From Desulfosarcinaceae bacterium (GTDB lineage Bacteria; Desulfobacterota; Desulfobacteria; Desulfobacterales; Desulfosarcinaceae), in contig JASJCL010000017.1 in assembly GCA_030066015.1 (NCBI GenBank), positions 62,001 through 126,000 of the forward strand: a stretch of 64,000 nucleotides of DNA, written 5' to 3'. A program made the translations under genes and the position numbers. The notes beneath the pieces were generated by a model. It saw nothing but the letters and a program-made list of their open reading frames with translations. It was not told the origin of the DNA and did not search any database. Numbering within the stretch: position 1 is the first letter of the stretch; each line of letters begins with the position of its first letter. Positions 10,315 to 26,243 of this stretch are shown in pieces.

Positions 10315-12579
10315 TCACCCACCCCGTGTTTCACCCCGATCCAACGCTTCACGAACTTTTTCGGCCAAGTCCACAATTGAAAACGGTTTTGCGACAAAGA
10401 TGATATCCTGACCCAAAACACCATTTCGAGCGATCACATCCGCCGGATAGCCTGACATGTAGAGAGCCTTGAGCCCAGGTCTGTCGTCGCGAAGGCGATC
10501 GGCCAATTCACGCCCATTCATCTTCGGCATCACCACATCGGTCAACACTAGATCGATGTGGCGTTGGGAGTTCTTAACGATTTGAATCGCTTCAATGGGG
10601 TCGTTGGCAACCATCACTTGGTAGCCCAATTTCTTGAGAATGGTGGTCGTTAATTCCAGCAGAATCTCGTCGTCTTCAACCAGGAGTACCGTCTCGCTCC
10701 CCGTTTGAATTGGCACTGGGTCGTCGCCGGATGCCGCACATTGCGCTTCATCCGATGCCACCGGGAAGAAAATTTTGAAGGCGGTCCCTTTGCCAAGCTC
10801 GCTGGTGGGGTAGATAAACCCATTGTTCTGTTTGACGATCCCGTAGACGGTGGCCAATCCGAGACCTGTACCCTGCCCCATCGGTTTGGTCGTAAAAAAA
10901 GGATCAAAAATCTGGGTCAGGGTGTTGGTGTCCATCCCACAGCCGGTATCACTTGCCGTCAGCCTCACATAGGTGCCGGGAATCAGGCCCGCAAACTGGC
11001 GGCAATAGGCGTCATCCACGGTCACACACTGGGTCTCCAAGGTAATGGTGCCGACATGGGCAATCGCGTCGCGGGCATTTACGCAGAGGTTGGTGATGAT
11101 CTGGTCCAGTTGAGATGGATCGATGAGGATCTTCGGGAGATGATGGCCCGGAATCCATGCCAGCTCGATCGATTCGCCGATGAGACGGTGCAGCATCTGT
11201 ATGGCTTGTGCAATGTGCTCATTTATCTGAATCAGTTCTGGCTGAACCGGTTGTTTACGGGCATAGGCGAGCAGCTGCCGCACCAGGTCCGATGATCTCA
11301 GCCCGGCCGTGTAAATGCTCTGAACCAGCGAACGGGAGGAAGCGTCCGCCGGCAGATCGTCCAAGAGCAACTCGGTGTTGCCGATGACGATGGACAGCAT
11401 ATTGTTAAAATCGTGCGCGATCCCGCCGGCCAGGTGGCCAACGGCCTCCATACGTTGGGCCTGCAACAGCTGCGCATGCAGGTGTTTATTCTCTTTTCCC
11501 GCCAGGATGTTGGCCGTGATATCTTCGACGATGCCATCGATATAGAGAACGTTGCCGGCGTCGTCTTCGATGGCGTTTGAGGTGATCGAACCCCAGATCG
11601 GAACCCCATTGCGGCCTTTCAATTGGGCCTGAAAGCCAGTTGTGCCTTTGGTATTGCGAATCTCCGCACGCATCCGACGACAATCGTCGGCGTTCAGGAA
11701 GAAGTGGTGGGTGTTGATCGCGTCCAAGGTATGGGTCGGGGCAATCCCAAGCATCTTCATCAGAGCGGGGTTGATGCTCAATAACCGACCTGCATAGGTG
11801 GAACGAAAAATACCGACAGGGATATTCTCGTTGAGGGTCCGATAGCGCTCTTCGCGGTCGCTGATCTCGCGATGCGCCGCGACAAGCGCTTGCTCCCGAG
11901 CACTGATCTCCCGCCCCATCTGCTGGAAGCGACACCAGATATCAGTGAATTCACGATAGATGGTGGTTCCACGGACCTGCTGAAAACGGCCGTCATGGAG
12001 GGCTCGAATGGCATCGCTAAAGAGCTGCAGCGGACGACGGATGAACAGCCGTACGGAACCGATGACGATGAGGCCGATGCCGGCAATCATCGCCAGAATG
12101 GTGCAGAGACCAAAGTAAATATTCTGGGTTTGCCGTTCCCGATAGACCCGGTTGGTCAGGCCCAGTTGAACGGCGCCCACGGGGGTGCCCTGAAGAGAAA
12201 CCGCCGCGCTCTTCACCAGGGTGACCATCGCCGTGAATTCGGGAGCCTGGTAGATCACCTTGCCGGCCTGATCGGTGATGGTCAGGGATGCGATCAGATC
12301 ATGGCCCAATGCTGCCGCGCCGATTTTTCGAACGGCGGAGCCATCGTAGTTCCATAAAGGGAGCTCAAGACTTTTGGTCAGAGAGCGCAGATGCGCATTC
12401 CCTCTTTGATTGAAATGGTCGCTATCCTGTTTGGTGACAATGGACACGTGAAGCAGGAGCGATATCACGGTGACCACCGTCGCAGCGGAGAGGATCGCCA
12501 AGGTGATTTCGAAGGCCAACGACCTGGCCGTCAGCGGCCATCTAAGATTGGCGATTGCTTTTTGCACCACCGACTTCAC
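10315..12579 (-). CDS. Membrane-bound PAS hybrid histidine kinase
   Basis: Sensor kinase of about 754 aa. Order: transmembrane helix (near 20-45), periplasmic region of about 110 aa, second helix (IYFGLCTILAMIAGIGLIVI), HAMP-like linker, PAS domain, HisKA with phosphoacceptor histidine in [12 protein letters not shown], HATPase with NLCVNARDA and GTGLGLATVYGIV, and a C-terminal receiver with the aspartate in VLTDVVMPKMNG and lysine in AKPF. The open frame starts with TTG at 12594; I prefer the in-frame GTG at 12579 because GGAG lies nine bases before it. It follows the binding protein gene at 12720 and may sense through it. No cognate output protein is adjacent. Confidence 0.88.
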   Translation of the reverse strand: MKSVVQKAIANLRWPLTARSLAFEITLAILSAATVVTVISLLLHVSIVTKQDSDHFNQRGNAHLRSLTKSLELPLWNYDGSAVRKIGAAALGHDLIASLTITDQAGKVIYQAPEFTAMVTLVKSAAVSLQGTPVGAVQLGLTNRVYRERQTQNIYFGLCTILAMIAGIGLIVIGSVRLFIRRPLQLFSDAIRALHDGRFQQVRGTTIYREFTDIWCRFQQMGREISAREQALVAAHREISDREERYRTLNENIPVGIFRSTYAGRLLSINPALMKMLGIAPTHTLDAINTHHFFLNADDCRRMRAEIRNTKGTTGFQAQLKGRNGVPIWGSITSNAIEDDAGNVLYIDGIVEDITANILAGKENKHLHAQLLQAQRMEAVGHLAGGIAHDFNNMLSIVIGNTELLLDDLPADASSRSLVQSIYTAGLRSSDLVRQLLAYARKQPVQPELIQINEHIAQAIQMLHRLIGESIELAWIPGHHLPKILIDPSQLDQIITNLCVNARDAIAHVGTITLETQCVTVDDAYCRQFAGLIPGTYVRLTASDTGCGMDTNTLTQIFDPFFTTKPMGQGTGLGLATVYGIVKQNNGFIYPTSELGKGTAFKIFFPVASDEAQCAASGDDPVPIQTGSETVLLVEDDEILLELTTTILKKLGYQVMVANDPIEAIQIVKNSQRHIDLVLTDVVMPKMNGRELADRLRDDRPGLKALYMSGYPADVIARNGVLGQDIIFVAKPFSIVDLAEKVREALDRGETRGG

Positions 12580-12719
12580 TATCTGAAGCTCCAATTGGGA
12601 CCGCCAGTCTGGACAAGCGGAACCGACGACATCGTTCGGTAATTCGCTTTGGACGACAGCGCGGAATTCAATCCGGCGATCAGCTCAGACCCCCAGATCG
12701 GCAGGGGAGACCGCTGATT

Positions 12720-13760
12720 CTAATGTTTTGCCAGTGGATCCAACCACAGGCCCTGCGCCCTGAGAGGCGTCTGAGACGTCAACAGCGGGTTGTTTACCCG
12801 TATAATTCTGCGCGACCGCAATCCTGCCTGACGGATCGCCGCCGAATGGTACTGCCAGAAGAGGCGATCGAAATCCCCGTCGTGGATCATGGTCAACAAG
12901 CCGGTTTCAATACGCTTTGCCAACGCGGGGTATTTGGGACTGACAAAAATGTAGATCGGTTGTGGAAGATATAAGGCCAAAGTGGGTTCGATGCGCATCT
13001 CCGGGAAGCGGTCGCTTCGGTCATTGTACTCCGTGAAGATCTCGTTGATGCCCCTTGGAAAGTAGTCGAATCGGCCGACCGCCAGCATCTCGAACAGCCC
13101 CTCGTAGTGGCTTCCCGTCACAACGGGGAATCCAAGCGACTTCATGACACGGGTGGTAACCCATTGCTGACGCAGTCCCGCGCGCAATGCCTTGAGGTCC
13201 TCGACAGACTGCACCTGGGTGAAGCGCTCCCTATTTTGCTGATGAATCAGGAACAACCGATACCCCAACACCCCTTTGGCGATGGGAATGCGGATCGGTA
13301 GGGTCTTCTCCTCCCACGCTCTCTGCGTCGGGACGATGTCCACATTGATCACCGTTCCGGAAATCAGTTCCACCAGGGCCCGATCGCGTTGTACACCGCA
13401 ATCGGCATGGTGAATCGTGAACGCCCCAAACAGAGCCCTCGTTTTTTCAAGCGCCATCTCTAGGACCGCGTTGTTGTATTCATGGCGCCGATCCAACACC
13501 GAATGGGGCCTTTCAAGACGTACCGCATCGATGGCCGCTGCGGTCGCCGGGATGGCGAGCATCACGAGGAGGAAGACCCCCCATCGCAACGTCTGGTGGG
13601 CAATGCGAACAGCCCCATACGCCCGTTCACCGCAGCCGCCATGCACAAGGTGCGCAGGATGCGCCGCCCCTTTGGTGGCGTGCCGATAGTGCAAACCGGC
13701 CGGACGGTTTCGAAGCCGGCCGTGCGCCAATGGCCCGTCGCTATAGAAGTTAGCAGTCAT
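12720..13760 (-). CDS. Periplasmic amino-acid-type substrate-binding protein (SBP_bac_3-like)
   Basis: Resembles family 3 solute-binding proteins: ...RAWEEKTLPIRIPI, GYRLFLIHQQ, the domain-crossover region SVEDLKALRAGLRQQW, and FDYFPRGINEIFTEY. A hydrophobic signal-like segment (WGVFLLVMLAIPATAAA) lies about 60 residues after ATG 13760, unusually far in; the true start may be a GTG further downstream, but none has a ribosome site. No ABC permease or ATPase gene is nearby. Position just upstream of a hybrid kinase and downstream of a chemoreceptor suggests a sensing role rather than transport. Start uncertain. Confidence 0.7.
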   Translation of the reverse strand: MTANFYSDGPLAHGRLRNRPAGLHYRHATKGAAHPAHLVHGGCGERAYGAVRIAHQTLRWGVFLLVMLAIPATAAAIDAVRLERPHSVLDRRHEYNNAVLEMALEKTRALFGAFTIHHADCGVQRDRALVELISGTVINVDIVPTQRAWEEKTLPIRIPIAKGVLGYRLFLIHQQNRERFTQVQSVEDLKALRAGLRQQWVTTRVMKSLGFPVVTGSHYEGLFEMLAVGRFDYFPRGINEIFTEYNDRSDRFPEMRIEPTLALYLPQPIYIFVSPKYPALAKRIETGLLTMIHDGDFDRLFWQYHSAAIRQAGLRSRRIIRVNNPLLTSQTPLRAQGLWLDPLAKH

Positions 13761-13830
13761 GTAGAATCGTTCTCCCGCCAGAAGGTCGCTTGCCGACCCC
13801 AATTACTTCGGATCCACCGACGGCCAGCGG

Positions 13831-15498
13831 CTATATTTTAAACTGATCGACACTCTTCTTCAGTATATCGGCCAGCTGGTTTAAGCCACCGGCACTCGTG
13901 CGAATCTGGCCACTATTATCTGACATCGTATCGGTTGCTCGGTTCACTTCCGCAATATCATGGGCAATGTGGTTGGCGACCTCAGAGCTCTGGGTCACAT
14001 TGTCCGTAACCTCCAGAATGCCAATGGCCGCCTGACTGACGTTGTCCGATATCTCTCTTGTGGTGGTTGACTGCTCTCCAACCGATGAAGCGACATCATC
14101 AACCATGTGGTTAACGTCTGTGATGGCCGTCGTGATCTGTTCAATTTCCGAGACCGTCTCCGTCGTCGAACGCTGAATATTATCGATCTTTTTGGTTATT
14201 TCCAGCGTTGCCTCGGCGGTTTGCTGGGCGAGATTCTTGATTTCAGCGGCGACGACTGAAAACCCCTTCCCGGCCTCTCCGGCACGGGCTGCCTCGATGG
14301 TGGCATTTAGGGCCAACAGATTGGTTTGCTCCGATATCTCATTGATGGTTTCAACGACATTTCCAATATCTTGCGCGGACTGGCTCAGAAGACGGATGCG
14401 CTGCGCTGCTGTTTCGGTTCGGGTTACCGTTTGGTGGCTTGTACAGCGCGTCTTCTCCGTATTTTCTGCAATTTCATTGATGGTTGCGGTCATCTCTTCA
14501 GCGGCAGTAGAGACCGTGCCGATATGGGTTGAAAATTGCGCAACCGCAGTGGCAACAGACGCCATGTTGGTGCTCATCTCCTCGGCAGCCGCAGCCACCG
14601 AATCTGATTTGGCCGACATTTGGTGCGCCCCATCAGACATCTTTTCAGAAATATTGAGCAGGTCGCCTGAGGACGTGTTCAGGGAGCTAGAATTAGTGGA
14701 GATATTCCGGATGACTTCCTGAAGTTTGTCCACAAAAAGGTTGAACCACTTGGCCAGACTGGCAATTTCATCTTTGCCGCTCATCTCCAGGCGCTTGGTT
14801 AAATCTCCCTCTCCCGAGGCGATATCCCTCATGGAGTCGACAACATGATTTAATGAACGCACGATTGCGTTGACCATTATCAGCGCAACTCCCAATACCG
14901 CCAAAATGGCCAGCGCACATGTAACGACAATCAGGAAGCTCTTTTTACGGCTTATTTCTGCGCTGGTCGCTATATTCTCTATGAGGCTTTGCTTAATCTC
15001 GGCGAGCTCATTTAATGAGAAGACAACTTGCAATCGGCCCAGTTTGTCGCCCTGATCCTCAAATACCTTGGAATAGATAAGGGTATGATCGGCGATAGCG
15101 AAGATTGGCTGATCGATCGGCAGGGCAAGCTTCTCATTTTCAGGGAGCGGTTTTCCGAGCAGGACGTTCCCGTCCTCGCCGTTCGCCAGCACCCGCTCCT
15201 CCGCGTCTAAAAAGAAGGCGGCGGTAACCGCTGTATATCGCTTTATCCGCTTCAGAATCTCATTTAACGCCTCCGGCTCAGGACCATAGAGCGGATCCAG
15301 CGCGCTGGCTTCGATAAAGGCCATTAAGTTGAAGATCGCATCCTTGTAAACGGCCTGGGTTGCTTTGGACGAACTGATGATTTCCCGACTTAATCGATCG
15401 ATGGTGACATGACTCTCCTTAAGAAAAAAAACAAAGGTCATCACCGACACAAAGCCCAGTATCATTAATGGCGATATTACTTTTTTGCGAATAGACAT
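13831..15498 (-). CDS. Methyl-accepting chemotaxis protein
   Basis: 555-aa chemoreceptor. N-terminal helix (about 8-26), periplasmic sensing region to about residue 190, second helix ([20 protein letters not shown]), HAMP ([23 protein letters not shown]) and a long cytoplasmic coiled-coil with the hairpin tip [20 protein letters not shown]. The C-terminus lacks a CheR-tethering pentapeptide. AAGGA precedes the ATG. It lies 40 bases downstream of the PhnD-like binding protein gene, so both are probably cotranscribed, the binding protein presenting a ligand to this receptor. Confidence 0.93.
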
Positions 15499-15538
15499 AG
15501 CTATCTCGATCCTTAGGTCTTATGAGCTCCGAAGGCGA

Positions 15539-16408
15539 TTACAGACCAAGCGCTTTCCTGACGCTACCGTTCATGACGGCAATGGGGTCGCCATCGAATT
15601 CAGAAAAACCCGATGGTGTTTTTATGGCGCTCAGCGCTGCGGAAGCTGCCGGATCATTTTGGGCGTCAAGCAGTAGGGATTTCAGCCGGTCAAAAGATAC
15701 GCCCTTGCGAACCAGGAGGACATGTCTGGGAACATATGCGGACTCGGGCGTCAGTATTCTGAACTCCGGATTACCGTCGACCGCACTTTTCTTGATACCG
15801 CCGGCGTCCGCTTTTTTACCCGCCCGCACCTGGGCAACGGTATTGTCGTCATCTTTACTGAAATAGTAGGCCACCTGGCCCGGAACGGGTTGGGAAGATT
15901 CGCTCAAGGTAAGACCGGCACCAACCAGAATGCTTTTCGGGAGCAAAAAAGATGATGTGGAATCCGGCTCTTCAAACGCAATCACTTTGCCGTTCAGATC
16001 GGACAGGGTCCGGATGGGGGAGTCTTTGGGCACAAAGACAACCGAATTATACTGCTTGAGGCCCTTTTTTTCCCGAATCAGAACCGGGACGGCACCTGTC
16101 GCATCCATCATCTGAACTACCCCATATGGACTTTCGAAAATAAAATCGACTTCTTCGTTTTTTATCTTGACAATCATCTCTGAGACCGTTTTCGTCACCA
16201 CAACCTTACCGGTGGGAAGGCCTTTCGCGCTGAGATAATGCAATAGTGGTTTAAATTGCTTGATGGTTTTACTCGGGCTGCTTCCGATTATGCCCAGGTT
16301 CAACTTTTCAGATGCCATGGCCGCTAACGGTGTTCCCAGAACGCAAAGCATAAGGATGGACATCATCGTGGCCTTGCACAGTGAATTCGCGAATCTTTTG
16401 AAAATCAT
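15539..16408 (-). CDS. PhnD-like phosphate/phosphonate family substrate-binding protein
   Basis: 289-aa periplasmic protein with a signal peptide (MMSILMLCVLGTPLAAMA) and the PhnD/PF12974 layout: LNLGIIGSSPSKTIKQFKPL, then EVDFIFESPYGVVQMM, RTLSDLNGKVIAFEEPDSTS and VRAGKKADAGGIKKSAV. AGGAGG precedes the ATG. No phosphonate ABC permease or ATPase is nearby; instead a chemoreceptor follows 40 bases downstream. I infer that it is a ligand receptor for chemotaxis rather than an uptake protein. Ligand unknown: the family also binds phosphite, phosphate esters and other oxyanions. Confidence 0.87.
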   Translation of the reverse strand: MIFKRFANSLCKATMMSILMLCVLGTPLAAMASEKLNLGIIGSSPSKTIKQFKPLLHYLSAKGLPTGKVVVTKTVSEMIVKIKNEEVDFIFESPYGVVQMMDATGAVPVLIREKKGLKQYNSVVFVPKDSPIRTLSDLNGKVIAFEEPDSTSSFLLPKSILVGAGLTLSESSQPVPGQVAYYFSKDDDNTVAQVRAGKKADAGGIKKSAVDGNPEFRILTPESAYVPRHVLLVRKGVSFDRLKSLLLDAQNDPAASAALSAIKTPSGFSEFDGDPIAVMNGSVRKALGL

Positions 16409-16449
16409 GGAGCCTCCTGCTTTTGGTGTAAGGTGTTGGGGTAGAATAT

Positions 16450-18501
16450 CTACCGCGGTTCGGGTTCCCTTATCGGCGTCTGGGGTAGGTTGCCCGGATC
16501 CACGGCACGGTCCAGGGCCTGCCGCACTTCCATGGACAGACGGTGGATGGTGAACGGCTTCTCGATGATCCCGCAGATCCCCAGCCGCGTAATCTTGGTG
16601 AGGTCGATGGCGTTGACGTAACCCGAGCAGATCAGCACAGGGACCTCTGGCTGGCGGTGCAGAATCGCCTCGGCCAGACGCACCCCCGTCATCCCCGGCA
16701 TGTTCATATCCGTGATCACCAGCTGATATGCGTTCGGTTTTTGTCTGAAGGCCGCCAGGGCTTCCAACGGGCAGGTTTTGGCATCGACCCGATAGCCGAG
16801 CTCGGTCAGCATCTCTTCAACCAAATCGACCAGGGCAGTTTCATCATCCACGAAGAGAACCTGTTCTGAGCCGGCGCGCAGCTTTGGCGCCTCGGGGACT
16901 GTCGGTTCTTCCGGGAGGGTGTGGCAGGGGAATAAGATCTGGAAAGTAGTACCGCTGCCCGGCGCGCTTTGTACCCGCATGACGCCGCCATGATCCTCCA
17001 CGATGCCCATCACGGTCGGCAAACCGAGACCGGTGCCTTGACCCGCCGCTTTGGTCGTGAAGTAGGGTTCGAAGATATGGGGCTGTATATCGGCATCCAT
17101 GCCACAGCCGTCATCGGACACGGTCAGGCGCAGATAGGATCCGGGCGTGAGCCCCTCATCGCCAATATTGGACGGCGTCAGCTCTTCGGCCGTTACAGCG
17201 ATCTCGATATGCCCGCTATCGCCGTCCAACGCATGGAAGGCGTTGGTAGCAAGGTTCATCAGCACCTGATGGATCTGAGTGCGATCTCCCAGAATGGTCC
17301 GTCCCTGGGAGGCGAACTTCTGGCGGATTTCGATGGTCGACGGGAGGGTGGTTCGCAACAATTCGTAGGCCTCCTTGGCCACACTTGCGATATCGATGGG
17401 TTGCTTCGAGGCGTTACGGGGGCGGCTGAAGGCGAGGATCTGGTCCACAAGTCGCTTGGCGCGGTGGCCGGCGGCACGGATGTGGTGAAGATAATCCTGG
17501 GCTTTGTGCGCTTTCGGCAGCGCCATTTGCGCCAATTGTGTGTTGCCAAAAATAGCGCTCAAGGTGTTGTTGAAGTCGTGGGCGACCCCGCAGGTCAACG
17601 CACCGATCACTTCCATCTTCTGGGCTTGCATCAGACGCGCGTTCAAGTGGTTCACCTCGCTGACCAAAGCATTCTCCCGGGCCAGGGAGCGGCAGAGAAC
17701 CCAGTGTCCCAGGAGGGGGCCGGCATCGCTTCCATCCGCGCTGATGGCGGCCGTCGTTACGGCGAAACTGGCCGTTTCCGTCTGTCCGCCAGACACGGAC
17801 GTGGACGGATCCTCAACCATCGGTTTCCCGCGAAACCGTATCGTCACCGAGTGGCTGGCGACACGACCGGCGGTGTCCGGTCCGAGGCGTTCCACCAGCT
17901 TCGGTCGGTCCTGGGGATGGAGAAATTCGGCCAGCAGTTGCCCCCGCATCTCCTCGGACGTCCATCCGCAGCCCGGCAAGGCACGGTTGAGGTGACGGAT
18001 CGCTCCCGAGAGATCCACGTGAAACACGGTATCGGCGGCGGCGCTGAGCAGGGCGGCCACTTCCGGTGCGCCTGGGCGGCGGCCACCCAGGGAGTGCTGG
18101 CGGGAAGAAACCCTCTGCACAATGAGCTGAATCGTGCCGGAGGAGCGGTCCAGCAGGCAGGCGCTGATCTCAACCGTGAGGATGCGCTCATTGGCGGTGT
18201 GCAGATCGGTCGTCAAGCGGCACTGCTCGGATGCCAGCAGGCGGTCACGGAGCTGTGCATCTTCGAATTGGGGAAGAATGGCGGTGAGCGGCCGTTGAAA
18301 GAGGGTCGTGGGATCGACCCCCAGCAATGCGATGGCGTTCTTGTTGGCATCGATGATGGCGCCATCCAGTCGACAGAGCAAGATGGCGTCATTGGATTGC
18401 TCAAAAAGGCGGCGATAGCGACGTTCGCTGTGCGCCAGCGCCTTCTCGCTAGGGCACCCTTCGTCGGATGGGGCGTCAAGATAGATCAGTTCTGCGGCCA
18501 T
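16450..18501 (-). CDS. Soluble PAS hybrid histidine kinase with receiver domain
   Basis: 683 aa with no transmembrane segment, so cytosolic. Two PAS-type domains (about 22-130 and 145-270) precede HisKA with histidine in GVAHDFNNTLSAIFG, HATPase with NLATNAFHAL, DDGCGMD and GTGLGLPTVMGIV, and a C-terminal receiver with aspartate in VITDMNMPGMTG and lysine in IEKPFT. Start ATG 18501, with only a weak ribosome site. It lies between a chemoreceptor gene upstream and the PhnD-like gene downstream, all on one strand. Confidence 0.9.
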   Translation of the reverse strand: MAAELIYLDAPSDEGCPSEKALAHSERRYRRLFEQSNDAILLCRLDGAIIDANKNAIALLGVDPTTLFQRPLTAILPQFEDAQLRDRLLASEQCRLTTDLHTANERILTVEISACLLDRSSGTIQLIVQRVSSRQHSLGGRRPGAPEVAALLSAAADTVFHVDLSGAIRHLNRALPGCGWTSEEMRGQLLAEFLHPQDRPKLVERLGPDTAGRVASHSVTIRFRGKPMVEDPSTSVSGGQTETASFAVTTAAISADGSDAGPLLGHWVLCRSLARENALVSEVNHLNARLMQAQKMEVIGALTCGVAHDFNNTLSAIFGNTQLAQMALPKAHKAQDYLHHIRAAGHRAKRLVDQILAFSRPRNASKQPIDIASVAKEAYELLRTTLPSTIEIRQKFASQGRTILGDRTQIHQVLMNLATNAFHALDGDSGHIEIAVTAEELTPSNIGDEGLTPGSYLRLTVSDDGCGMDADIQPHIFEPYFTTKAAGQGTGLGLPTVMGIVEDHGGVMRVQSAPGSGTTFQILFPCHTLPEEPTVPEAPKLRAGSEQVLFVDDETALVDLVEEMLTELGYRVDAKTCPLEALAAFRQKPNAYQLVITDMNMPGMTGVRLAEAILHRQPEVPVLICSGYVNAIDLTKITRLGICGIIEKPFTIHRLSMEVRQALDRAVDPGNLPQTPIREPEPR

Positions 18502-18607
18502 TGGGTGTATGTTCGGTTCCCGAAGGATCGGTTGCTAAATTAGGGATCGTGCGCGGACGATCCGGTACGTGTGGTAAAGCGCGAAGCGGCCTCGGCATCG
18601 CCACGCG

Positions 18608-20311
18608 TCAACCGCATCTGAACTGCGCCACCAGTTGATTGAGTTCCTCGGCCAGTTGGGAGAGATTGGCTGAACTTTGCTTCACGGTCTGACTGCTCTT
18701 GACGATCTGTTGGGTGGATTGATCGACCTCGCCGATGTCCGCCGCAATGGTGCTCGACACGTCCGAGCTCTGGCTGACATTCTCGTTGACCTCCTGAATC
18801 CCCTCCGACGCTTGGGAGATGTTGGTGGTGATCTCGCGGGTGGCGCCGGACTGCTGCTCTACAGCGCTGGCCATGCCGTTGATAATATCGTTGATCTCGG
18901 CAATGACGGTGGAGACGGCGTCAATTTGGCTGATGGTCTGATCGGTCGTCGTCTGCACATCATCGATCTTGGCCTTGATATCCAGGGTCGCCTTGGCCGT
19001 CTGCTGGGCCAGCTCTTTGATCTCATTGGCCACCACCGCAAATCCCTTCCCGGCCTCCCCCGCCCGGGCCGCTTCGATGGTGGCGTTCAGGGCCAGGAGA
19101 TTGGTCTGTTCCGATATCTCCGTGATGGTTTCGGTCACGTGGCTGATCTCCTTGGCCGCGCGGCCCAGGCTGGCCATGGAGGCCGAGGCACCCGAGGCCT
19201 GCTGAACAGCCTCTCCGCTGATGGTGCGCGCCTGATTCGCATTGCCGGCGATTTCGGAGATGGTGGTTGACAGCTCTTCGGTGGCCGACGCCACCATGGT
19301 GGCGCTGGTGGCCGATTGCTCCATGGCGGCAGCGACGGCTTGGAGGTTGGCCGTCATCTCCTCGGCCGCTGAGGCCACCGAGACGGATCGGCCGGAGGTG
19401 TCCTCGGCATCCTCGGTCAGATTCTGGGAGATGGTGGCAAGCTCGGTCGCGGACTCCGTGAGAGTTGCGATGCCGGCCACCACTTGCTGGATGGTTTGGC
19501 GGAGCTGATGGGCCATCTCGTTGAGGGACTGGATGAACTGGCCCATCTCATCGGTGCGGTCGGTGGTCAGCGATTGGCGAAAATCGCCCCTGGACATCTG
19601 TTGGGCAAACCCCACCGCTTGGACGATGGGCCGGGTGATGGCCAGACTGATGACGAGACCCAGCAGGATACTGACCGCCAGACCCGTGACCAGAAAGAGC
19701 GCGATAATGATGGTCGCCCTGTGGCCGTTGGTGACGAGGTCGCTTGTGGTAGCGGCAATCATCTTCTCAGCGCCGACGGCCAGCAGCTGCACGCCGGTTT
19801 CAAATTGATAGATATCGTTTTTGATCGGCTTCATCAGTTGGTTGGCGGCCTGGGGCGTCAGGGTTTGATCGCCCAGAATGCGATCGGCGAGCTTCGTGAA
19901 TCCCGCCACATAGTTCCCATAGGCGTCCCGGCTGGTGGCGATGGCGGTTTGAAGCTCCTCTGGGAGACGGTCCTCCGCTGCAGCTGCGGCTACGGTGCGG
20001 TCCAGTGTTTCGACCGTTTTTTGGGAGACCGCCTGGAACTTTTTCAGGTACCCTTTCTGCTTCTCCAGGTTTCCGATGTTCAGGAAAAAATCCTTTTCGT
20101 AGCGGCGATGACTGAGGGCCAGCACCTGCAGGTGTTCGGCGGAGACCAGCAGCGCCATATCCTCGGCGGCGAGGGTCTCGAGGGCATCCGCCGTGTGGGA
20201 GATGGTCATCAGCCCCTTGCCGCCGACGACAAGGGTGATGAGGGCGGTGAGCAGAAAACCGCCGATAAGCTTTTGCTTGATGGACAATTGGGACAATTTC
20301 ACCCCTTGCAT
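18608..20311 (-). CDS. Methyl-accepting chemotaxis protein, probable sigma-54-controlled gene
   Basis: 567-aa chemoreceptor: N-terminal helix ([16 protein letters not shown]), a periplasmic helical-bundle sensor with the [18 protein letters not shown] pattern seen in bimodular helical-bundle (HBM) receptors, second helix ([20 protein letters not shown]), HAMP, and the signalling hairpin [27 protein letters not shown] precedes the ATG. The upstream region carries a close sigma-54 promoter match (20427-20441), and the next gene encodes a sigma-54 activator. HBM-type sensors often bind organic acids; ligand here is unknown. Confidence 0.93.
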
Positions 20312-20426
20312 GGGCCCTCCTTAGGTGATGATGCGATACGATTGGGCGCTGGACCGCCCAGCCGCTGTCTACCTGGCGCGGGTTCCGCGTGCGGGTTCCG
20401 CAGCGAACCGGTTGAGGGAGGCTTCT

Positions 20427-20441
20427 TCAAACACCGTGCCA
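20427..20441 (-). promoter_or_regulatory. Candidate sigma-54 promoter upstream of the chemoreceptor
   Basis: Read on the minus strand the site is TGGCACG-N4-TTGA, matching the -24/-12 consensus TGGCACG-N4-TTGC at all core positions but the final C. It would give a leader of about 105 bases to the ATG at 20311. A sigma-54-dependent regulator is encoded immediately upstream, supporting the call. Confidence 0.45.
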
Positions 20442-20455
20442 GTAATCCTTGAAAA

Positions 20456-20483
20456 ATTAAATTGTTTATTTACAGATAGTTAA
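20456..20483 (-). promoter_or_regulatory. Weak alternative sigma-70 promoter
   Basis: On the minus strand TTAACT (20483-20478), 16 bases, then TTTAAT (20461-20456). The region is AT-rich compared with its surroundings. It overlaps the approach to the sigma-54 candidate and is less convincing than that site. Confidence 0.25.
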
Positions 20484-20566
20484 AAGAGGTAACGCTGGTG
20501 GGGAGAGCGCTTCTGGGCGGTGATGTTCGGCGGGAGTGAACGGGGTGTTTGGAAAGAGCGAACCGG

Positions 20567-22006
20567 TTATTCGGGAGCGGACCCGGCAATACGGAGCCCG
20601 TGCTTTTTAAATAGCTCCCAGAGTCGGGTACGGGCCAGACCTGCGATGCGCTGGGCGGTCCGCTGGTTGCCCTTGGCCCGCTCGATCAACATCAGGAGGT
20701 AGTCGCGCTCCGCGCGCTCCACCTGCTGGTCGCGGTACTCGCGAAAGGTGGGCAGCGGTTGCCCGTCCGGCGGCGGCGTGTCCCCACGGCGGTCCGCTGC
20801 GGATGTGGCGAGGGGCTGGCGGCTTTGCCGGACGGCGGCCTTGATCCCTTTGGCCCGCATCTCGACCGGCAGGTGCTTGGCGAACAAGATCGGTTCGGCA
20901 AAGGCCTGGGCCAGCACCAGCTCCATCGTATTGGACAATTCGCGCACATTGCCCGGCCAGTCGTAGGCTTCCAGCATCTGGAAGAAATCCTGGGAGAACC
21001 CCTTTTCCGGGATCTGGGCGCGACGGCAGCCCTGGTTGGCGAAGTGGATGGCGAGGGCCTTGATATCCTCGTGGCGCTGTCGCAGGGGAGGCAGTTGAAT
21101 GCCGATGGTGTTCAGGCGATAGAGCAGATCTTGACGGAAGGCGCCGGTCGCCACCATCGATGCCAGATCCCGGTTGGTGGCGGCCAGGAGCCGGAAGTCG
21201 CTGTGCTGCTCACGAATATCGCCCACCGGGCGATAGCGACGCTCCTGGAGCACGCGCAACAGGTTTTTTTGGAGGGCGAAGGGCAGCTCGCCCACCTCAT
21301 CCAGAAACAGGGTTCCCCGGTGGGCCTGGCGGAGCAGTCCGGGTTGGGAGCGGTCGGCACCGGTGAAGGCCCCCCGTTTGTGACCGAAGAGGATGCTCTC
21401 GGCCAGTTTGTCCGGCAGGCTGGCGCAGTCGACGATAATGAAGGGCATCTGCTTGCGGGAGCTGTTGCGGTGGATCAGATGGGCGAACAGCTCCTTGCCG
21501 GTTCCCGTCTCCCCCGAGATCAGCACATTGGCGTGCGTCGGTGCACAGGTGGCCACCTGCGCCAGACAGGCCTTCAGACGGGGGCTGCGGCCCACCACCC
21601 CATCGTCGTCCATCACCCGCACGCGATGGGTCTGGCGGGCCTGTTCCCGGAAGCGGATCGCCCGCTGGAGGGTGAGGGCGATGTGGTCGATGGAAACCGG
21701 CTTCTGGAGGTAGTCCCAGGCACCGTTTTTAACCGCCAATTCGGCGCCATCGGGGTCTCCGAAAGCGGTCATGATGATGATCTCGGGTGATCCGGCGCTG
21801 GCGCGCAGCTCGGGAAGGGCCTTCAGGCCGCTGCCGTCGGGCAGTCGGATGTCGAGAAAGATCACATCGAAGGCGGTGACGCTGCTGTGTGAGAGCGCTC
21901 CCCCAATGGTGGCACTGGTTTCGACCCGATGGTCGAGGGCCGTGAACTCCGCCTCGAGCAGGTCGCGAATGTCCTGTTCATCATCGACAATGAGGATGGA
22001 CGCCAT
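20567..22006 (-). CDS. Sigma-54-dependent NtrC-family response regulator
   Basis: 479 aa. Receiver domain (1-115) with phospho-acceptor Asp52 in [14 protein letters not shown]+ domain with Walker [10 protein letters not shown], the sigma-54-contacting GAFTGAD loop and [18 protein letters not shown]-terminal Fis-type helix-turn-helix ([20 protein letters not shown]). It starts only five bases after the stop of the large sensor kinase gene upstream, so the two form a coupled two-component system. It may act on the sigma-54-like promoter just downstream, in front of the chemoreceptor. Confidence 0.95.
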
Positions 22007-22011
22007 GGTGT

Positions 22012-25000
22012 CTACCCATCTCCAGCGGCGTCAGCCCGCTGATGCCCATCGATTCCATGGGCGCGGTCCAGCACCCGACGGACGGTGTTGGCCATCATCG
22101 CCACCGCTGCCGGCTTCATCATAATCGCTTGAATGCCCATCTCAGCGGCGTTCTCAGGCCCCACCTTTTCACTATAGCCCGTGCAGAGAATGACGGGCAT
22201 GTCGGGCCGCAGGGACCTGATCTCCCGGGCCAGCAGATCGCCCGTCATTACTGGCATGGTCAAATCGGTAATGAGAAGATCGAACCGATGGGGTGCCGCC
22301 TGAAACATCGTCAAGGCCTCATCGCTGCGGGTGGTGCCCACGACGCCGTAGCCCAGCGGCTCGAGGACCGCCTTGGCGAGACTGACCTGTGCCTCCTCAT
22401 CGTCCACGAAGAGGATCCGTTCGCTACCGCCGGGCAATGGGCTTGCCGCGACGCGCTGCCTGACCGGTTCGCCGGCGATGGCGGGAAAATACAGCTCGAA
22501 GGTGGATCCCTTGCCGGGTTCGCTCTCCAGGGTGATCCACCCCCCGCAATCTTCGACGATACCGTGGACCACGGAAAGTCCAAGGCCGGTTCCCTTGCCC
22601 TGTGCCTTGGTCGTGAAGAAGGGGTCGAACAGACGATCCTGGATATCCGTCGGTATGCCGCTGCCGGAGTCCCGCACGCTCAGCCGGACGAGGGGCCCCT
22701 GGGTCGGCTGCCCGCCCGGTCGCTCAGCGCCATCCAGATCCGACAGGCGCACTTCGATGACGCCGACCTCGTCTGGTAGGGCGTGGGCGGCGTTGGTGCA
22801 TAAGTTCATCACGATCTGGTGCACCTGGGTTGGATCGGCCTGGATGAACCGCTCGCTGTGCATCTGCTGACGGATCTCGATGGTGGTCGGCAGGGAGGCC
22901 CTCAACAGGCGAAGGGCTTCTTTGGCAATGGGCTTGATCTGCAGCGGCTGGGCCGTTTTTTGGCTCTGGCGACTGAAGGTCAGGATCTGTTTGACGAGAT
23001 CCCCCGCCCGGTTAGCGGCGTTGAGGACCCGTTGAAGATTTGAGGCCAACTTGGAACCGTCGGTCACCCCGCGCAGCGAGACCTCCGTGAAGCCGATGAT
23101 GGCGGCGAGGATATTGTTGAAGTCATGGGCGATCCCGCCAGCGAGGGTCCCAATGGCCTCCATCTTCTGGGCCTGGTACAATTGGGCCTCCAGCCGCTTT
23201 CGCTCCGCTTCGGCCTGTTTGCGCTCGGTGATGTCGCGCACGATGGCCTGAATGTGGGGGCCGTTTCTCAGCATCACCATGTTCAAGTTGACCCGAACCT
23301 CGAAAAAACTGCCGTCCAAGCGCTTGTGCAGCCATTCGAACTCCTGGGGGTCGCCCTGCCTGGCGGCTCGGGTCGTGGCCAACAGCTTCTCCATCGAAGG
23401 CGTGCCGTCCGGCTGCAGGCGGGGCGAGAATTTGGACGGCAGGTGGCCGATGATGTCTTCCCGCGAGCAGCGGAAGATCTCCAGGGTCTTTTCGTTGCAC
23501 TCCACAATGGTCTGGTCTTTGATGATAAAGATGGCGTCGTTGGCCGAATGGAAAAGGGTGCGGTAGCGCTCTTCGCTCTCCCGCAGGGCATCGTGGGCGA
23601 GCTTGCGGTCGGTGATATCGCGGATCACTTCGATGGCGCCGACCACTTCGCCATCGGAGTTGTGCAACTTACGGGCGCTGTTCCAAAACAGGGAGGGCTT
23701 GGGCCGGAAGTGCGGGTTGACGGTTTCCGAGACGAGGATCTCCCCGTGTCGTTGGAGGTTGTCATATGACCGGGCGGCCGCTTCATCCCATCGGAGGGCG
23801 AGGTCGATCATGCAGGGTCGCCGTTCGCCGTAGAAGGGCACCGCGTAGGCATAGTCGCCCCGGCCAACCATCTCTGCCGCCGAGACGCCGCTGAGGGCCT
23901 CGATGGCGCGGTTCCAGGCCACCACCTTCCCATCGGTGTCGATGACGAAGGTGGCATCGGGCAGGAAATTGATGATATCGGCCAGGCGGCGCTCGGAGTT
24001 GCGCAGGGAGGTCTCCATGCGCAGGCGCTCGGTGAGGTCGATGCCGATGCCCAGTGCATAGCGGCCGCTCTCCAGGGTCAGCCGCGCGCCGGTGAAAAAA
24101 TAGGGCGTTTTGCTGCCGTCCTCGTTGATGATCTGCGCCTCGAGTGAAGTTTGCCCCTGCGTGAACACCTGGTCGATGCCGTGCCGGACTTTCTCCAGAT
24201 CCTGCCCGTCGAAGAAGTCATCCAGCGACAGGTGACGCAATTGCACGTCGGTGTACGCCGCTCCGATGTTGCGGGCCTGATTCCACCGCACGAGCCGGTA
24301 CTCATCGTCATACATGTAGAAGATACCGGGCAGGCTATCGAGGATCGCCTCGCTGAACCGCTTCTCCCGCAGCAGCTGCGCTTCGGCCTGTTTTCGCTCG
24401 GTGATATCCTGGATGATACCGTCGATGACCTCCTTGTCGCCCTCGGTAGCCGACACGCGGGTGGCACTCAGTGCGCCCCAAAACAGGGCCCCATCCCTGC
24501 GTTTGAACTGGATCTCGAACTCCCTGAGTTCCCCGTCGGCGGCCAAGGCGGCGAGCGCCTCTTTGCGACGCAGTGGATTGAGATAAAGATCTGTCGGGGT
24601 GTATCCTGCCGCGTCGGTGGTGCTATCCAATCCAAACATGGCCAGCGCCGCTGGGTTGAGCGATACCAGTCGCCCGCCTTGGGTGCGGTAGATCCCCACG
24701 GGGATGTTGTCGTGCAGGGTGCGGTAGCGGGCCTCGCTCGCGCTGAGTGCGCGTTTGATGCGCCGCACCCGCACGAGGTTGGCGACCAGGAGGAGGATCA
24801 AGAGGGCCTGCACCAACAACACGCCGAGGCCGACCATGATCTGGCGCTTATAGGCGGTCCACACAGATGGCTGCGAATTAATAATGCGGCTTCCTTCCGG
24901 GAGTCTGGCCTGAGGGATCTGCCACCGTTTCAGCGCTGTGGCGTCAAACCCGAAATTTGGGCCCTGCACCGGGACGGGAACATCCTCGGGCGGCCCCTGC

Positions 25001-25917
25001 TTGAGTTCCGCCAAGGCGGTTAAGGCGGTCGCCCGGGCAAGATCATCCGCGCGGGTCAGGCAACCGCCCACAATACCGGTGCCGAGCAGCGTGTCGACAA
25101 ATCCGAATACGGGGGCGTTGGCCCTGGCCGTCAGTTGCTGGACGACGTCGGCCGTGTGATGTTTGCGACCCAGTCGGTCCCGGTCATAGGTGGTAAAGAG
25201 AATCGCACTGTGGACGGGAAGGGCCGTCACCTGGGACCAGAGGGTGTCCAAGGGCGTGCCGATCAGGTAGTGCACCGCCATGGTTGGCGCCACCGTCTCG
25301 ATCGCCGCTTCGGCGCTCCCCAGAAACTGGTGGTCCAGGTCGCCGCCACCGGCCACGACGACGAGGGTGGCGGTCTCTGGAAGAAGGGTGTGAATGGCGG
25401 CCAGCGTTTTTTCGAGGGCCATCCGCCCGCCATCCGAGGAGATCACAGAGGCCCCGATCGCCGTCAAGTCTCTCATGTCTCGGCCGTCGGGCAGAACCGC
25501 GATCAGGGGCACTCCCGGAAAGAGGCTTGGACCATGGATGTGCAGGAAACGACCGGCACTTGGCAGCACCGATATCACCAGATCCACGGGATTGGTCGAC
25601 ACCCGTTCCTGCAGCGCCTCGATGGTCGCATAGGGATAGCCCCCTTGCGGGTATTCATCCAAGCCCAGGTAGACGTGGTTGATCCCCACCGACAGGTCTT
25701 GGTCGGCGAGAAAAAGACGGTGAAGGGTGGCGTTGAAGGGGATCTCCCAGGTGCGAATGCGCCACAGGCCATGGAGAACCAGCACCTGCTTTTTTGGGGG
25801 CCCTGTCGGCGTGGTCGTGGTCGCCGCAATCTCCATTGAGATGAGGAGCCACGTGAAGAGGCAATATAGAATGATCCGTGCGATCCTGTACCCTGTTGAC
25901 AGATGATCGAGCCTCAT
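22012..25917 (-). CDS. Large multi-PAS hybrid histidine kinase with periplasmic ABC-binding-like sensor
   Basis: 1301 aa from ATG 25917 (AGGTG upstream; the frame also extends to 25965). A signal/anchor helix is followed by a periplasmic region of about 310 aa of the ABC_sub_bind type ([38 protein letters not shown], ...HTADVVQQL), then a transmembrane helix ([22 protein letters not shown]), four PAS domains with PAC segments, HisKA with histidine in [19 protein letters not shown], HATPase ([23 protein letters not shown]) and a receiver ([18 protein letters not shown]). The first gene of the pair with the sigma-54 regulator. The N-terminal sensor suggests detection of a small extracellular molecule. 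Confidence 0.9.
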
Positions 25918-26243
25918 GCGGACACCTGACGATCCGTAAGGGTGAGCCAGCCCGCAGGCGGGCACATCGGCGACTGAATGGCGGCGGTGATGACCGAAGA
26001 GGCGCTCGTATCGTCAGGGGCGCGGGCAGCGGGGAAGGATGGAGGCATCTTGGCCGCACGGAATGGCGGAACCTTCCCTCTGATTTAAGCGCGGTCCCTG
26101 TTCCGGCGTCAAGTCTGAATCGCCGGTCGGCGTCAAAGCGCGCCTTGGCGGTGGGCCCTTGATGCCGCACCAATGCGGTGATGGCCTGGGAAACGAGCGG
26201 TTGCGATCCGACCGGTGGAAGAGATGTGCAACGCCGCGACACT

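Follow-up and report, generated by a model that had tools for sequence, protein, structure and literature searches.

A PhnD-like binding protein and an adjoining Cache chemoreceptor as a probable bipartite chemoreceptor in a Desulfosarcinaceae bacterium

The 64,000-nucleotide stretch of Desulfosarcinaceae DNA analysed here (the window) carries on its minus strand a gene for a PhnD-like periplasmic binding protein (SBP; 15539-16408, 289 aa, ATG start) with an N-terminal signal peptide, followed by a gene for a chemoreceptor (MCP; 13831-15498, 555 aa, ATG start) that is composed of a periplasmic sensor, a HAMP domain and an MCP signalling domain. The two genes are separated by 40 bases (15499-15538, minus strand), the order and spacing described in an earlier sequence-only reading of this DNA, and RBS-like stretches are found ahead of both starts (AGGAGG for the SBP and AAGGA for the MCP). 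Pfam searches assigned the SBP to PF12974 (E value of 1.3e-38) and identified MCPsignal (PF00015; 3.8e-34) and HAMP (PF00672; 4.8e-12) in the MCP. Located 41 bases upstream of the SBP gene, also on the minus strand, is a gene for a hybrid histidine kinase with PAS, HisKA, HATPase and receiver domains (16450-18501), for which no transmembrane (TM) segments were predicted. A binding-protein-like ORF (12720-13802) and then a second hybrid kinase gene (10315-12594) lie downstream of the MCP gene. A promoter and terminator scan of 12500-22100 gave counts no higher than those of shuffled sequence and was uninformative.

These genes are part of a minus-strand signalling run (window 10315-25965) that includes three hybrid kinases, two MCPs and one NtrC-type regulator. 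By eye, the ORF at 12720-13802 resembles a type-2 binding protein, and its product had no matches in searches against Pfam, NCBIfam and the PDB; the hybrid kinase that comes next has two TM segments. The two genes perhaps form a further SBP-receptor pair, arranged in tandem with the SBP-MCP pair.

The SBP gene had also been noted to lack an ABC partner, and our searches agree. A motif test, which is not exhaustive, found no ORFs with ABC ATPase motifs in the 64-kb window. A phnCE-like transporter under common control with the SBP, which that reading had named as the finding that would speak against it, was looked for across the genome (5.73 Mb in 155 contigs) and was not seen, because phnC and phnE matches that pass the curated cut-off occur only on another contig, in a phnD-C-E-E set with its own PhnD; none of the matches listed fell in the window. 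Seven PF12974 proteins were found in the genome, two of which adjoin ABC genes. The other five directly precede a receptor, the receptors being the window MCP, one other MCP (contig C127) and three kinases.

The structure model of the SBP (mean pLDDT 94.5) has as its best solved fold match XAC2383 from Xanthomonas citri (Z of 27.2 and rmsd of 2.9 for 254 aligned residues), with which it shares about 28-30% sequence identity. When a profile of 38 relatives was compared with solved structures, XAC2383 was again the top match (E of 1.6e-78), with PtxB next (1.4e-29); the fold matches to AioX/ArrX gave Z scores of 18-22. The structure models in this work drew on alignments of 32 and 38 rows, consisting of the window and the pattern-scan loci described below. 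In the XAC2383 context, two PDB titles name chloride and ATP as bound ligands. The closest relatives of the SBP are encoded in G221 (locus L036; 58-60% identity) and in an uncultured Desulfobulbaceae (locus L056; 55-57%), and each of these loci also encodes an MCP whose sensor is of the same type. In a tree of 42 SBPs, a subset of those available, the window, L036 and L056 proteins form a clade (support of 99/99), and this MCP-linked trio is separate from 34 kinase/cyclase/phosphatase-linked rows (98/96) in the tree, which was built without XAC2383. Matches to the SBP at an E value of 1e-40 or better were present in 2 of 389 genomes in a sample of the same order, its own genome counted.

One study (PMC5700983) describes how PtxB and PhnD grip ligand oxygens via a Ser-Thr-Ser motif, Tyr residues and a His, and how the cap position sets the choice of ligand, with Tyr favouring phosphite and Asp favouring 2-aminoethylphosphonate (2AEP). 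In our alignments the SBP retains the oxyanion-binding motif, as Ser150-Thr151-Ser152 (15953-15961, minus strand), and the hinge Tyr120. In the profile alignment, Asp187 (15848-15850, minus strand) is found at the place of the anion-binding His160 of PtxB, and the second residue of Arg228-His229 (15722-15727, minus strand) takes the place of the capping Tyr208 of PtxB and Asp205 of E. coli PhnD. Of the 38 aligned rows, 37 have an acidic residue at position 187 and 36 have Arg228. The pocket His is kept in the transport PhnD of the same genome and in two paralogues that the genome also encodes. The mature SBP contains no Cys residues.

Because the Ser-Thr-Ser motif is kept and the protein resembles XAC2383, the SBP ligand is likely to be anionic and phosphate-like. 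The fold by itself does not secure an oxyanion ligand, because BstB, a member of the PhnD-fold family, is reported as a sterol binder in PMC10942540. The ligand put forward in the sequence-only reading, an oxyanion such as phosphonate or phosphite, finds partial support, as the Ser-Thr-Ser motif and hinge Tyr are retained but the determinants for phosphite, 2AEP and arsenite are missing. Specificity for phosphite is unsupported, as Asp187 replaces the His and His229 the capping Tyr, and specificity for 2AEP is likewise unsupported, with His229 at the position of the PhnD cap Asp. A sensor for arsenite of the AioX kind can be rejected, as the mature SBP is without Cys; PMC7533571 states that AioX of A. 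tumefaciens requires Cys108 for arsenite. Together, the pocket residues and the lack of Cys argue against recognition of phosphite, 2AEP or arsenite by known mechanisms.

The MCP has two TM segments, at about residues 7 and 189, and its sensor domain (about residues 28-188; 14935-15417, minus strand) is predicted to lie in the periplasm between them. MCP residues 1-262 were modelled with a pLDDT of 89.2 as a long helix followed by five strands, another long helix and the HAMP domain. The sensor model matches the WalK sensor (Z of 13.9 and rmsd of 2.6 for 131 aligned residues), and CitA, PctD and dCache chemoreceptor sensors are further matches among those listed. Because its structural matches are the WalK, CitA and dCache chemoreceptor sensors, we read the modelled sensor as a single Cache domain. 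Pfam reported only HAMP, and no sensor family, for the sensor part of the window MCP, and matched sCache_3_2 in 12 of 32 partner receptors. The MCP sensor is homologous to the sensors of kinase-linked relatives (E values of 1e-5 to 1e-3).

A co-occurrence analysis, which had been suggested as a check on the pairing, was run on two sets of loci and bears the pairing out. The first, of 43 loci in named genomes, was found with a scan pattern derived from an alignment of receptor-linked SBPs; the set therefore favours receptor-linked loci, and its members are not independent cases because several are near relatives (e.g. five Leisingera). A receptor-like ORF directly follows the SBP on the same strand in 40 of these 43 loci. 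Short motifs classed the outputs of the 40 as 23 kinases, 11 GGDEF/EAL proteins, a single SpoIIE phosphatase and a single MCP, leaving four without a class, with Pfam backing for six of the 40 (L056, L066, L080, L084, L086 and L095); L048 was Pfam-checked as well but is outside the 43-locus set. The loci lacking a receptor-like ORF are L060 and L097, which are at contig ends, and L094, while the receptor of L079 is cut after the first TM segment and that of L082 has unusual TM spacing. The second set, which overlaps the first such that some entries are the same place, consists of 35 slices chosen solely for their resemblance to the window SBP, with the slice of the window itself included. Here a two-TM ORF lies directly downstream of the SBP on the same strand in 30 of the 35, the exceptions being L008 (MCP upstream), L022 (ABC-type neighbours), L026 (a two-TM protein upstream, in the L054 view), L033 (cut after one TM) and L034 (none, close to a contig end). 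As to the two closest relatives, the MCP gene of L056 begins 105 bases after the SBP gene, and L036 has its SBP and MCP genes in the opposite order, about 1.04 kb apart. No HAMP domain was matched in the L036 MCP (L036:9705-11438), which terminates with a PilZ domain that may connect it to c-di-GMP.

The two halves of the window MCP have different affinities. These were compared in 14 of the 15 MCPs of the genome, the window MCP counted and one on contig C146 missed by the motif, together with the L036 and L056 MCPs. For residues 1-208, just two of the 15 other MCPs in the comparison gave matches, those of L036 (45%) and L056 (37%). By contrast, for residues 209-555 the identity to the other 13 MCPs of the genome is 27-52%, reaching at least 43% in 11 of them, and the identity to the L036 and L056 MCPs is 30-35%. 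On these identities, the sensor half goes with the SBP and the signalling half with the host. SBP and sensor identities are also correlated, with an r of 0.73 for 31 pairs (31 of 32 receptors, one having been dropped as it had no SBP row) whereas 5000 permutations gave no value above 0.35. With the set thinned to 25 rows, r was 0.65, a value that none of 5000 permutations reached. This correlation backs a lasting pair rather than contact, because co-inherited neighbours would correlate too. The GC content at third codon positions (GC3) sets both genes apart from their surroundings. It is 0.57-0.59 in the SBP and MCP genes, with both MCP halves alike, versus 0.74-0.81 in three upstream genes (0.74 in the hybrid kinase at 16450-18501), 0.67-0.70 in two downstream genes and 0.79-0.85 in three other MCP genes of the genome. 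Because the pair has a lower GC3 than its neighbours and the other MCPs, the simplest reading is that the two genes would have arrived jointly from a related, lower-GC bacterium.

PMC9602780 presents SBP binding to receptors as a general and widespread mechanism. For the window pair, a relay from binding protein to chemoreceptor is well supported at the level of sequence, because the neighbourhood is conserved, the Cache sensors are homologous, the divergence of SBP and sensor is correlated and the SBP lacks transporter genes of its own. We therefore favour, as probable, a bipartite chemoreceptor in which the SBP, with an anionic ligand, signals via the Cache domain of the MCP to produce a chemotaxis output, and the SBP is very probably a detachable sensor of the MCP rather than a feeder of a transporter. 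The secreted SBP would hold in its cleft a solute that is anionic and most likely bears a phosphate-like group, and would most likely close on it. Loaded or empty, it would then dock on the Cache domain of the adjoining two-TM receptor, and docking would shift the signalling state of the receptor, which would be passed via HAMP to the MCP tip and CheA and thereby alter swimming bias. In this scheme, we infer the contact between SBP and receptor, the identity of the ligand and the sign of the response. The genome contains two CheA, 15 MCP and two flagellin matches.

Two caveats to the bipartite reading are the opposite gene order with a wide gap in L036 and the ability of Cache domains to bind ligands unaided. 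The MCP might then sense a ligand of its own, and the neighbouring SBP feed another receptor or none. The structure matches of the MCP sensor include the direct binders CitA and PctD and, according to PMC7533571, A. tumefaciens GW4 has an mcp gene beside aioXSR whose sensing domain binds arsenite unaided. We nevertheless regard direct sensing as unlikely, since the pairing of the SBP with this Cache type persists whether the output is a kinase, a cyclase, a phosphatase or an MCP, and the sensor tracks the SBP, not the output. The compositional island and the patchy distribution of the SBP (the 2 of 389 genomes noted above, its own included) would also fit an acquired remnant, in which SBP and MCP came together horizontally and the MCP, standing outside the host arrays, is functionless. 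Against this, both reading frames are intact, the pocket signature is retained and the MCP signalling half is up to 52% identical to host receptors, making a remnant quite improbable.

The remaining alternatives assign the SBP to a different partner. That it is a transport protein for the distant PhnC-E transporter, or serves transporter and receptor both, as MBP does, would be in keeping with its PF12974 fold and with the presence of a phnC-E-E set in the genome. However, that set already has a phnD directly before phnC, and the SBP falls short of the curated thresholds for TIGR01098 (92.4 vs 112.05 bits) and TIGR03431 (69.8 vs 261.1 bits); a transport role is thus very unlikely, though sequence leaves some room for sharing with a distant transporter. 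The histidine kinase encoded 41 bases upstream has a short gap and a shared strand to recommend it as the partner, but this kinase is absent beside the SBP in L036 and L056 and its GC3 differs from that of the pair. As it has no predicted TM segment, and therefore no periplasmic part, we rejected it as the primary SBP receptor, and its being the partner in any form is scarcely credible.

Among known systems, the bipartite chemoreceptor that we favour comes closest to the XAC2383-XAC2382 pair of Xanthomonas citri, reportedly described by Teixeira et al. in 2018, in which XAC2382 is said to be a diguanylate cyclase receptor. We take XAC2383 to be the periplasmic component of a two-part receptor in which a conserved Cache domain is joined to varied outputs. 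In both pairs, the gene for a PhnD-fold SBP lies beside that for a two-TM receptor with a periplasmic Cache domain, and the window SBP has the Ser-Thr-Ser motif and the Arg at position 228 in common with XAC2383. Unlike in the Xanthomonas pair, the output of the window receptor is an MCP rather than a diguanylate cyclase, and the place of the pocket His is occupied by Asp in the window SBP and Lys in XAC2383. PhnD, PtxB and HtxB, which function in phosphonate, phosphite and hypophosphite uptake, resemble the window SBP in fold, Ser-Thr-Ser motif and hinge Tyr, but the window SBP lacks adjacent transporter genes and has changed His and cap residues. The likeness to MBP-Tar drawn in the sequence-only reading holds for the relay from an SBP to a chemoreceptor, which the conserved pairing backs. 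It does not extend to the parts, as there are no adjacent ABC transporter genes and the sensor of the window receptor is a Cache domain, whereas that of Tar is a four-helix bundle. ArrX, an arsenic-sensing protein, has a partner kinase. AioX, of the AioX-AioS system, as its role is described in PMC7533571, is like the window SBP in being a PhnD-fold SBP for signalling, not transport; the window SBP differs from AioX and ArrX in having no mature Cys and in a sequence profile far more distant from them than from XAC2383. A literature search of limited depth returned no recognised description of such a PhnD-like SBP and MCP pair, and we do not claim that the pair is unpublished.

On sequence grounds the window SBP and MCP are filed as a chemotaxis-coupled member of the known XAC2382/XAC2383 kind, a system of an ordinary type whose details are useful. 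An annotation as PhnD-like need not mean a nutrient importer and can instead denote a detachable sensor, as the five of seven PF12974 proteins that precede a receptor in this genome indicate. The pair is also compact, which suits it for probing how binding proteins signal through Cache domains to the chemotaxis array and for asking which pocket residues set the ligand in this SBP group. The window, L036 and L056 SBPs share a trio-specific motif, GGIKKS. It is conceivable, if doubtful, that the trio represents a dedicated chemotaxis lineage outside the kinase/cyclase clade, marked by the acidic pocket residue and this motif, with a ligand new for the PhnD fold and carried as a mobile cassette. 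If so, the bacteria concerned would gain taxis from a sensor cassette that needs no transporter, passes from genome to genome and is coupled to varying MCP signalling domains.

Other PhnD-like SBP genes lie ahead of MCP genes. On contig C127 of the same genome, one such gene (L117:1411-2322) is followed after 73 bases by that for a 666-aa MCP (L124:9725 onward) with a longer periplasmic part and TM segments near residues 20 and 299; this SBP keeps the pocket His and has lost the Ser-Thr-Ser motif. At L046:5445-8718 and L047:5160-8536, PhnD-like SBPs precede MCPs with a zinc-binding CZB domain and a sensor region roughly 300 residues long, the L046 sensor matching dCache_1. The L046/L047 and L117 SBPs branch away from the trio, L117 on a long branch that makes its placement unsure, and by sequence L046/L047 are a separate pairing of a PhnD-like SBP with an MCP. 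Tandem PhnD-like SBP genes are found at L049, L060 and L078, where both members of the L078 pair lie ahead of one kinase receptor.
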